Origin: an uncultured Bacillota bacterium
GTDB taxonomy: Bacteria > Bacillota_I > Bacilli_A > RFN20 > CAG-826
DNA: 32,528 nt
Direction: 5' to 3'
Assembly: GCA_949291655.1 (NCBI GenBank)
Contig: CASEWT010000006.1
Coordinates: 1-32,528, forward strand
Shown: piece by piece, positions 12,107 to 17,577 of the stretch
How positions within the stretch are numbered: position 1 is the stretch's first letter
Layout of the letters: each line of letters starts with the position of its first letter
Translations under genes and position numbers: made by a program
The notes under the pieces: generated by a model
What the model was told of the DNA's origin: nothing
What the model saw: only the letters and a program-made list of their open reading frames with translations
Database searches by the model: none

Positions 12107-14674
12107 CTAGGCCCGGAGGAAGCGCGTCCCGTCATAGCGGATGGAGAAAGCGGTACTCTCCCCAAGCCGCGAGAGGGCATTTTGACTCTGGATGCTTGTC
12201 CCGTCGGAAGCAAAGTACATGCTCGCGAAGTAGACGTAGGTGCTCCCGCCGGCGGCAAAAAGGCCGGTGGAAGGATCGTAGGTGCAGCTCAGCAAGGAGC
12301 AAGATCTTTCGTCCCGGGCTTCGAAGCTCCCGCTGCCCCCGCAGTCGAAGAGATATGCCTGCCCGGAAGAATCCCTCAAGACGCCGGAGGTCGAATCGTA
12401 GGTCCCGACGAAGGAAAGGAAGGAAGAGGTGTAATAGGCCGTACCGAAGGAAACAAGTGGCCGAGCGTAGCCCTTGGCGTGTTTCTCATCGGTCGCCAAG
12501 GCCGTATCGAAGCCAAAGGTCTCGACATTGATCCCGTAATCCTCGCGCAGGATAAGGAAAGGGTTGCTTCCCTTTCCATAGTCGACGTAGACAAGGTCCG
12601 AGGAACTCGGGACCGAAGAGACGTCCGTAACGGCGATGCGGTTGAAGTCGATCGCCCCGGCCAGGCGATAGAGGGTCGCATTCCCCCTCTGGAAGACGAG
12701 AGTCCCGTAAACCTTCACCTCGGAAGGGCCGAAGTACTTCTGGAAAGGGTTCGAGGTATCGCTTGGCGAAAGCCTCGAAGGAGAAGGGACGGCGAAGTCC
12801 CGGCTGACATAGGCCCCGGTCGAGCGATCGACATAATAGTAGGACTTATCGAGGACCGATACCTGGGCCGAGCGATCGCTCACGTCATAGCCAAGGCATA
12901 CGAAGGAATCCTTGTCGGCGATGAAGCTCGAGCCCGGCATCATCTTGATCGGCTGGGCGATTCGTACCGAAGAGGCAACGAAGAAGAGGTCAAAGAAGGA
13001 AGGGATCGGGAATATGAACTCCGAAGTGTCGATTTTCGTCTCGATGACCACTCTGATTTCGAAGACGAATTTCCTAACGGCGACCGCGACGTTGCGGAAC
13101 TCCGTCTTGACCCGCTGGGAAAGGCATCGGGTGAGGACGACATTATCCGCGGCGAGGCCGCTTTCCATCCCTTCGATCCGGGCACCTTCCAAGACGACTT
13201 CGGAGTCATCTTCCGACGGGGCTTGGAGCTCGAAGAAGTAATCCCCGCCGGCGGGACCGATGAAATTGATGACGAAATCGGAAATCCGGGCGGTAATGAA
13301 CGTCCCGACATAGATATTGCAATAGGCGACAAGCTTCCCCCACGTCGTGCCGTCGTGGCGAACCACGGCCCGGCAAAGTAGATAAGGAAAAGTGAAGGAA
13401 TCGAAAGGGAAAGCCTTGGCAAGGGCCATCTGGGTGGTGGCCGTTCCTCCTTTGTAGTTGAGGACGACGGCCATTGTTTGAAGGGTTCCCCCGTCGACGT
13501 AGATGTTCCCCGTCCCGGCCGAATCGACGATCGATCCGTAGCTTTCGAGCTTCCCGCTTCTTTCGATGAAAACATCGTGGCCGTTTAGATCGAGTTCGAT
13601 GTAGGCCCCGGTTATGTTGCTTTGGACCGCGAAGCTGTCGCTTTGCCCGAAGTTGCTCCGCAATATCAAGGTTCCGCCGATCGTGAGATCGTCCAACAAG
13701 ACGAGGCGGTACTGAAGGGCTTTCGAATCCTGATTCCGCACGGCGACGACCTGATTGCCGCTCGAGTTCTTGGAGCCGTCGGTCCCGTCGTTCAAAGCCA
13801 TGTTCACGGTAACCCCAGCCTGTATTGCCAATTCGCCGCCGCTCGGGGCCGCAAGGAAGACAGTCCTCGTCTCGGCCGAATACCCCGGGTCGGACCCGAT
13901 GTCGTAGGCATTGCCTTTGCCGCTTACGTAAAAGGAATGGGAGCCGCTCGTGAGATTGGATATGGTTGTCCCAAGGCGGGAGGGGGAGGCGGAAACATAA
14001 TCGTCTTTGACGACTTGCGCCGTCAGGGCGATGTCGCCATCGAGGGGTGCTGAAAAGTCGAAGGAGGTCCCGTCCTCCCTCGTTAGGCCCGTAAAGGTAT
14101 AACCCTCGCCGAGGATGCCGCTTACGTAATCGCTCAGGAAATCGGGGGAAAGGAGGGATCCAGAGGTCATCGAAATCTCGTCGACCCGCCCGTCGAGATC
14201 GTCGTAAACGATACTATCGCGGTAGGAAGACTGGTAGAGCGCGGCTGCCCCCCGATAAATGTAGACAAAGACCCAAGTTCTTTTGATGGTTTCGGTGACG
14301 TCGAGGCGGTATTGGCCGCTGCCATCGCTTTTCGGGGCATAGTAGGAGCCGGTATCGATGTCTTCCCCGCTGGTGAAATTGAAGTTGTAATTCCGAATCG
14401 TCGTGAAGAAATTGTTGTAATTGGCTTCGCTGTCCGTCGAAAAACTGACGAGGGGCGCCGTTTCGAAAACCTCTTCGCGCTCTTGACTCATCTTGATTCG
14501 GTATCCGAGGCTCAAAGTGACCTGCCCATCGCTTCCGGCCGTCCCCCGGAGGGAACTCGAATCCGACTCATCGACGGCATAGGGGAAAACGAAGGAAGCG
14601 CTCGCCGAGCCGATGGAAAGGGCGACCGTCGAAAGGCAAAGGGCGAAGCGGGCAAAGCAGGCAGGCTTCTTCAT
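12107..14674 (-). CDS. Large exported protein of unknown function, beta-rich
   Basis: 855 residues. An N-terminal signal peptide is visible (MKKPACFARFALCLSTVALS, then GSASASF as a likely cleavage region). The rest is rich in S, T, Y, D and alternating strands; a stretch around ~360-420 (YIELDLNGHDVFIERSG, YGSIVDSAGTGNIYVDGGTL) looks like the rungs of a beta-helix as in adhesins. There is no LPxTG signal or C-terminal anchor, so it is secreted or attached through another partner. Its ATG overlaps the stop of the upstream exported-protein gene (ATGA, 14671-14674), so translation is probably coupled. That upstream gene is out of frame at a G9 run, which would be expected to reduce expression of this one too. 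I do not recognise a family. Confidence 0.8.
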   Translation of the reverse strand: MKKPACFARFALCLSTVALSIGSASASFVFPYAVDESDSSSLRGTAGSDGQVTLSLGYRIKMSQEREEVFETAPLVSFSTDSEANYNNFFTTIRNYNFNFTSGEDIDTGSYYAPKSDGSGQYRLDVTETIKRTWVFVYIYRGAAALYQSSYRDSIVYDDLDGRVDEISMTSGSLLSPDFLSDYVSGILGEGYTFTGLTREDGTSFDFSAPLDGDIALTAQVVKDDYVSASPSRLGTTISNLTSGSHSFYVSGKGNAYDIGSDPGYSAETRTVFLAAPSGGELAIQAGVTVNMALNDGTDGSKNSSGNQVVAVRNQDSKALQYRLVLLDDLTIGGTLILRSNFGQSDSFAVQSNITGAYIELDLNGHDVFIERSGKLESYGSIVDSAGTGNIYVDGGTLQTMAVVLNYKGGTATTQMALAKAFPFDSFTFPYLLCRAVVRHDGTTWGKLVAYCNIYVGTFITARISDFVINFIGPAGGDYFFELQAPSEDDSEVVLEGARIEGMESGLAADNVVLTRCLSQRVKTEFRNVAVAVRKFVFEIRVVIETKIDTSEFIFPIPSFFDLFFVASSVRIAQPIKMMPGSSFIADKDSFVCLGYDVSDRSAQVSVLDKSYYYVDRSTGAYVSRDFAVPSPSRLSPSDTSNPFQKYFGPSEVKVYGTLVFQRGNATLYRLAGAIDFNRIAVTDVSSVPSSSDLVYVDYGKGSNPFLILREDYGINVETFGFDTALATDEKHAKGYARPLVSFGTAYYTSSFLSFVGTYDSTSGVLRDSSGQAYLFDCGGSGSFEARDERSCSLLSCTYDPSTGLFAAGGSTYVYFASMYFASDGTSIQSQNALSRLGESTAFSIRYDGTRFLRA

Positions 14675-15367
14675 CGGCTTTCCCTCGTGAGCGAAAAGGT
14701 TATCGCGTAGCGCGCCCCGGCGAGCTTTTCCGCGTCAAGGCTCCCGGAAGTGATGCCAAAGGAGAAGGTAACGGGGCTATGCGTTTCGAAAGAATGGACG
14801 GCATCGAGCTCGACCAAGGTATAAAGCGAGCGGTCTATTCGACTTTTCACCGGAAGGAGGAACGTCGTCGTTGCCCCTTGGGTCGAGAGGGTCCGTTCTC
14901 CTTCCAACTCGAAGCTGTAGACGCCGTACTCGGATAAGGAAACGGACATCGCGGTGACGAAATTGGCATTCAAGGCATCGGTCCCTTCCAAAAAGAAGGA
15001 AACCTTGAGCATGACATCGTCGTAGAAATCCAAGGACGAAAGCTTCGCCCGCTCGATCTTCCCGTCAACCTCGAAAGCGGGCGAGCCCGCAAAGGTGCCG
15101 GAAGAAGAGGAGGCGTAGACGAAGGAGGGGCCATCCGGCGTCCCTTCGTCGAAACTCAGGCCGATGTCGGAAAAGCCGATCGTCGTGGCATAGGCGATGT
15201 CCCCGACCGTCGCCGAAAAAGGCCCGACTTCAGCGCTAGAGGGCCCGATAAGAAAGGTCGAAAAGCCGAGAGCAAGCGAGGAAAGAACTGCTAAGGCTAA
15301 TAGAAATCCCCCCCCCTCGCACGAAGCGAGAGGCTTTCTTTCTCCGAACGAGGGCTTGCCGTTTCAT
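14671..15367 (-). CDS. Exported protein with G9 run in the signal peptide; out of frame as read
   Basis: From the ATG at 15367 the frame encodes MKRQALVRRKKASRFVRGG, a strongly basic signal-peptide start, and then meets nine G (15308-15316 on the plus strand as C). In the sequence as given the frame continues as ISISLSS and stops after RAL. Shifted by one base it gives the missing hydrophobic core FLLALAVLSSLALGFSTFLI and then ~205 residues to the stop at 14671 (GPFSATVGDIAYATTIGFSD through YAITFSLTRESR). So 8 or 11 G would be ON and 9 is OFF. The mature part is a beta-rich domain of unknown function. No SD precedes the ATG; a TAGAAT box lies 7 bases upstream. It overlaps the 855-residue gene by ATGA. 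Confidence 0.75.
15308..15316 (-). repeat. Nine-G homopolymer inside a signal-peptide coding sequence
   Basis: Nine consecutive G on the coding strand, between the basic n-region and the hydrophobic core. Runs of this length slip during replication and are classic contingency loci. Only one other run of this length occurs in the window, at 17524-17532. Confidence 0.8.
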
Positions 15368-15374
15368 CGCCATG

Positions 15375-15380
15375 ATTCTA
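15375..15380 (-). promoter_or_regulatory. -10 box of the exported-protein operon, leaderless start
   Basis: TAGAAT on the minus strand ends 7 bases before the ATG at 15367. No SD is present. A weak -35 candidate (TGGCAA) is 17 bases upstream. Confidence 0.45.
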
Positions 15381-15432
15381 TCTCCGATGCCGCCGTCTTG
15401 CCATTCTTTACGAAAACCAGCCAGCCGGGCCC

Positions 15433-17428: not shown

Positions 17429-17577
17429 TCAGGAAGCCGAGAGGCTACCAAACAGCCTTTCGGCGTAGCGCTCGATGAGGCAGGTGGAAAACCCGAGGCT
17501 AACGCTCAAAAGGGCGGCCAATACCCCCCCCCGAACATTCCGATCCGCGCTTCCCGCTTCCTTCCGAGCCTTCTCAT
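17429..17577 (-). CDS. Small exported ORF with G9 run in the signal peptide; out of frame as read
   Basis: From the ATG at 17577: MRRLGRKREARIGMFGG, strongly basic, then nine G (17524-17532). As read, the frame goes to YWPPF and stops. Shifted by one base it gives a hydrophobic core VLAALLSVSLGFSTCLIE, then RYAERLFGSLSAS and a stop at 17429, for a product of about 48 residues. The core closely resembles that of the larger exported protein upstream of 15308 (LALGFSTFLI). Seven or ten G would be ON and nine is OFF. It has a good promoter (TTAACA-17-TATACA) 9 bases from the ATG and no SD. It could be a small signal-anchored protein or the surviving front of a lost larger gene. Confidence 0.5.
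17524..17532 (-). repeat. Second nine-G homopolymer in a signal-peptide coding sequence
   Basis: Nine consecutive G on the coding strand, in the same position relative to the signal peptide as the run at 15308-15316. Confidence 0.8.

Follow-up and report, generated by a model that had tools for sequence, protein, structure and literature searches.

The locus analysed here raises the question of whether a run of nine G, which at present puts the start of a gene out of frame with the rest of it, is a switch, or whether the gene has been misassembled, has decayed, or is expressed in spite of its frame. The run lies in the window, by which we mean the whole stretch of 32,528 nucleotides that was analysed, on its minus strand at 15308-15316 (C on the plus strand), where it forms codons 18-20 of a gene designated A. 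It parts the ATG and basic n-region (MKRQALVRRKKASRFVR) from the hydrophobic core (FLLALAVLSSLALGF), leaving both in different frames. The elements of the gene are as follows.

15317-15367, minus strand: start codon (ATG at 15367) and basic n-region of A (MKRQALVRRKKASRFVR)
15308-15316, minus strand: the G9 tract proposed as a switch; its present length is out of frame
15236-15367, minus strand: OFF product, a shortened peptide of 43 aa and its stop, in the frame from the A start
14671-15309, minus strand: 212 codons and a stop, coding for the hydrophobic core and the mature part of A, intact, out of frame with the start

Translated from the ATG at 15367, the gene yields MKRQALVRRKKASRFVR-GGG-ISISLSSSFLACSRLFDLSYRAL-stop. 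The core frame begins with GFLLALAVLSSLALGFSTFLIGPSS, continues with the hydrophobic core FLLALAVLSSLALGFSTFLIG and stays open for 212 codons until a TGA at 14671; no start of its own (ATG, GTG or TTG) was found upstream in this frame. An earlier note on this DNA had placed nine G between a basic n-region and a hydrophobic core, had described the protein as given as stopping early (after 43 aa, as counted here), and had seen an 855-residue exported protein (designated B, 12107-14674) overlapping A as ATGA. All of this was borne out, and the description of the locus proved correct in each detail that was checked.

The length of the run is in itself no argument, since the dinucleotide content of the window allows about two G9 runs: two are present, and dinucleotide-preserving shuffles of the window gave a mean of 2.01. 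The real genome avoids long G-runs, with at least nine G at only 3 places in 1.2565 Mb and at least eight at four places. Three of these four runs (15308, 17524 and contig 50:4771-4778) are preceded by a basic n-region and followed by an LGFST/VGFGS-type core. Across 37 genomes of the genus, 84 distinct G-runs of at least eight were read, and 13 of them sit at one spot, between n-region and core of family A, against about 0.0002 of the 84 expected there by chance, a rough Poisson estimate from the rate of the other G-runs. The non-random feature is the position of the runs, not their length.

The A genes form one uncharacterised family of putatively exported proteins of ~200 aa. Alignments of the family (A1, A2) had no match in Pfam or NCBIfam, and no curated profile of these two collections identified A or the window B as SipW/TasA-type or as another named exported family. 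A profile search of the order placed family A in 50 of 279 genomes, a count in which some weak matches may be other exported proteins whose core is similar. Signal peptides were assigned by eye; the basic n-region and hydrophobic core are visible in this way in all members, and the core helix is predicted. The AlphaFold model of A has a mean pLDDT of 43.7.

Homologues with 7-11 G at the same place, which the earlier note had suggested looking for, do exist: tracts of G8, G9, G10 and G11 occupy this spot in A genes, among them nine from other genera (three belonging to family f5 of the order) with G8-G10. Among intact tract-bearing A genes, 7 of 20 are in frame and 13 of 20 out, where the start codon was taken as the one whose basic n-region directly precedes the tract and the sample comprised one assembly per species, many of them MAGs. 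The in-frame share is close to 1/3, as would be expected of an unbiased switch with a tract drifting over three frames. These counts also bear on the concern that the gene is truly in frame and that assembly or sequencing has given the tract in the window a wrong length. Homopolymers of eight or more are error-prone and the window comes from a 107-contig assembly, but more than a dozen species have the tract at this place in their assemblies. Moreover, open reading frames spanned by other runs of G8 or longer in the genus are mostly in frame (~20, versus 4 out-of-frame candidates, one of which is two adjacent genes), in contrast to the 13 of 20 among A genes. We consider such an error quite improbable.

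ON and OFF states were found between close relatives. The orthologue of the window A in the sister species G031, whose contig CASFWS010000058.1 was the only one matched in a contig search with the single A protein, is in frame, the window thus being OFF and G031 ON. The flanks read GTGCGA-G9-ATTTC in the window and GTGC-G9-AGTTTC in G031, both with nine G and with a net difference of one base, so that in this pair the frame has changed at the tract and not by a pure change of its length. At a second locus G031 has G8 and is out of frame, G002 has GGGGTGGGG and is in frame, and the present genome has G9 with the gene deleted. All three members of the group G018, G033 and G026 are in frame, with G9, with G8 and without a tract. 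Several A genes without a tract are constitutively in frame, and an interrupted tract locks one orthologue in frame. On the A tree, many deep branches of which are weakly supported, members in the ON state, in the OFF state and without a tract occur mixed together (11 changes versus a shuffled mean of 12.7).

Alternatively, the out-of-frame gene might be read by design, if slippage during transcription (or ribosomal frameshifting) were programmed at the tract and gave a constant fraction of full-length A. The tract is located ~50 nt into the putative transcript, the effect of homopolymers is known in principle, and such reading would be compatible with purifying selection on the OFF frame. An out-of-frame state is, however, not maintained in the family (7 of 20 genes are in frame), other A genes are in frame with an interrupted tract or none, and the length of the run is not conserved. 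As a sole explanation this is unlikely, though transcriptional slippage may act in addition to replication slippage.

Selection on the switched-off frame was assessed by comparing the core and mature part of A between the window and G031. In the core frame, 16.5 synonymous and 15.5 non-synonymous differences correspond to a dN/dS of 0.30, versus 1.2 and 1.5 for the other two reading frames of this DNA (binomial test on the A frame, p ~0.002); for B, the value against the G031 orthologue is 0.15. Judged by these substitution patterns, the OFF frame of A is under purifying selection, and a dN/dS of 0.30 in a switched-off frame means that this is not old decay, as the earlier note had argued from the intact downstream codons. 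That A is an ordinary pseudogene here, broken by chance at its G-run, might be suggested by family members that have decayed, namely the copy at 17524 of the window (3' part and B deleted) and one in G019 (C30, with a TGA after the core). Against this, A in the window retains 212 intact codons, a dN/dS far from that of the wrong frames and an intact B, and contig 50 of the same genome carries another intact A-B copy which is also OFF with its tract at the same position. Decay therefore appears highly improbable.

The deleted copy in the window consists of the following elements.

17524-17532, minus strand: second G9 tract, occupying in a second A gene the position of the first; the rest of this A and its B are deleted (orthologues in G031 and G002 have an intact B)
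17533-17577, minus strand: n-region of the second, deleted A (MRRLGRKREARIGMF)
17470-17484, minus strand: junction of the ~3.6-kb deletion, located by comparing the window with the G002 locus in blastn

Compared with G002 and G031, the window has lost ~3.6 kb here, and with it the larger part of the second A and almost the whole of its B; a CTC[A/C]TCGAGC repeat occurs near the junction. The B gene of the second locus in G031 was considered as a decayed copy as well, which was ruled out, its reading frame being intact and open over 1060 aa. In two A copies (L123, G019 C30; L263, G030 C1:274865) a TGA stands at the conserved family Trp after the core. Recoding of TGA as Trp was rejected: RF2 is present in five of five genomes tested and TGA ends A in the ATGA overlaps, and for this reason both copies are taken as probably decayed.

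The surroundings of A indicate an operon, for which two further features are needed.

12107-14674, minus strand: B, an 855-aa exported beta-rich protein, its start codon in the ATGA overlap with the A stop
15375-15404, minus strand: putative sigma-70-type promoter of A, ATGGCA-18-TAGAAT, from a promoter scan

With 7 nt between the end of the -10 box (TAGAAT) of this putative promoter and the ATG at 15367, the A transcript would be leaderless. In most A homologues (L177-L194) a TATAAT-like box is located ~6-9 nt before the start codon, which suggests leaderless A mRNAs in the genus. In 17 of the loci read, a long ORF for a predicted exported protein (B, 790-1141 aa) comes after A, mostly with an ATGA overlap, and the A-B operon is kept in all loci examined, tract-bearing or tract-less. 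The ribosome-site-like GAGGG lies within the end of A ahead of the window B start, and a purine-rich sequence of this kind is found at the B start, inside the end of A, in many loci. From the start-stop overlap in nearly all loci, it is plausible that A and B would be switched together.

A Hint module with a conserved first Cys is found towards the C-terminal end of about 10 of 18 B homologues. In the contig 50 copy of B, this is a Hint (hedgehog/intein) domain (Pfam PF01079, residues 777-894, E 3.3e-8); in the window B it is absent, the protein ending before the Hint position. Some B homologues (including L188, 5327-8374) are large and exported, and combine Ig-like (Big_2) domains with a Hint domain at the C-terminus. 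The AlphaFold model of the window B (mean 49.2) is confident and beta-rich only in part of residues 320-600, and Foldseek of the model against the PDB gave no match at E < 0.001; given the low confidence and the lack of a match, we claim no fold for B.

Other G-runs in this genome and in the order were noted alongside. The fourth run of at least eight G in the genome, an intergenic G10 at contig 29:5690-5699 (L109), is located ~210 nt upstream of another exported gene of the GFSTW type, and the sister species G031 has G11 at this place (L075); this pair is a possible candidate for transcriptional phase variation. A glycoside hydrolase-like gene, MVDGVFGVNNSAA-[G]-SATYKFPSEYESTTELYTHR (L290 in G038, L299 in G050), is in frame with G9 in one of these genomes and out of frame with G8 in the other, and is likely to be another switch in the order. 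In other families of the order, G9-G11 were seen by eye in or beside glycosyltransferase-like and DNA-methylase-like frames (L273 and L268 in G045, L280 in G043, L303 in G055). Glycosyltransferases and DNA methylases are classical phase-variable gene classes.

With regard to A itself, the G-tract is very probably a phase-variation (contingency) switch inside its signal peptide, A being the first gene of a two-gene exported operon. The shared tract position, the existence of both ON and OFF states and the purifying selection on the OFF frame thus support the phase-variable exported protein proposed in the earlier note. Slipped-strand mispairing in replication would alter the number of G. At one length in three, the start codon and basic n-region would be joined to the core, and A would be made and exported; at the other two, a short peptide would end soon after the tract, and the window would represent a captured OFF state. 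B would probably be co-switched, at least partly, as translational coupling via the overlapping start is lost; we base this on the overlap of its start with the A stop and on the polarity known from Bifidobacterium pilus loci (PMC9187656). Slippage within a population, its effect on export, the coupling of B and the function at the surface are what we infer from these patterns. The gain is likely to be antigenic or adhesive variation, or escape from phages, at the cell surface.

On a wider scale, we think it rather probable, from the genomes compared, that these genes constitute an undescribed two-gene exported system (A, then B with a frequent C-terminal Hint), widespread in an uncultured order of gut-type Firmicutes, with a conserved poly-G tract in the signal peptide, leaderless transcription and stochastic export of the pair, which some lineages would have locked ON by an interrupted tract and others lost by deletion. 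Comparative genomics alone points to such a conserved switch for an exported operon of an uncultured lineage whose genomes are small, and provides exact sites at which metagenomic reads could measure ON/OFF ratios in hosts. It should be noted that automatic annotation will call such genes truncated or miss their starts. No description of family A or of its order-wide tract was found in the literature (open-licence papers), and the family, its operon with Hint-bearing B proteins and the retention of the tract at one point of the signal peptide across genera appear to be new.

Phase variation by homopolymer slippage has been documented mostly in cultured Gram-negative pathogens. Cases from gut commensals are few, such as that of Bifidobacterium (PMC9187656). 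The mechanism proposed for A is that of classical poly-G contingency, and its nearest analogue is the pilus switch of B. breve, where the G-tracts of the sortase-pilus genes bbr_0113 and bbr_1889 of strain UCC2003 slip in vivo, as demonstrated by maximum-depth sequencing and EM, and separate the Sec-signal ORF from the remaining part of the gene (PMC9187656). Both cases concern a gut commensal with an intragenic G-tract between the Sec signal and the rest of an exported protein, an annotated length that is OFF, and the first gene of a cluster, with polarity on the downstream genes in B. breve (PMC9187656). The B. breve proteins are, however, LPXTG pilins with a sortase, whereas A is without a known domain and no sortase cluster was seen; furthermore, the tract lies here inside the signal peptide, unlike in B. 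breve, and the proposed switch is read from one assembly per species. Hint proteins (PF01079) offer another point of comparison, the domain being common to many B homologues and missing in the window B. The locus also resembles the poly-G/C contingency loci of Campylobacter, Neisseria and Helicobacter (PMC8355987, PMC5084427, PMC2823697), in which surface-related genes are turned ON and OFF by frame through G/C tracts of 8-11 close to their 5' end. Those loci belong to other phyla and other families; in the uncultured Firmicutes order, by contrast, a single family keeps its tract at a single position in different genera.
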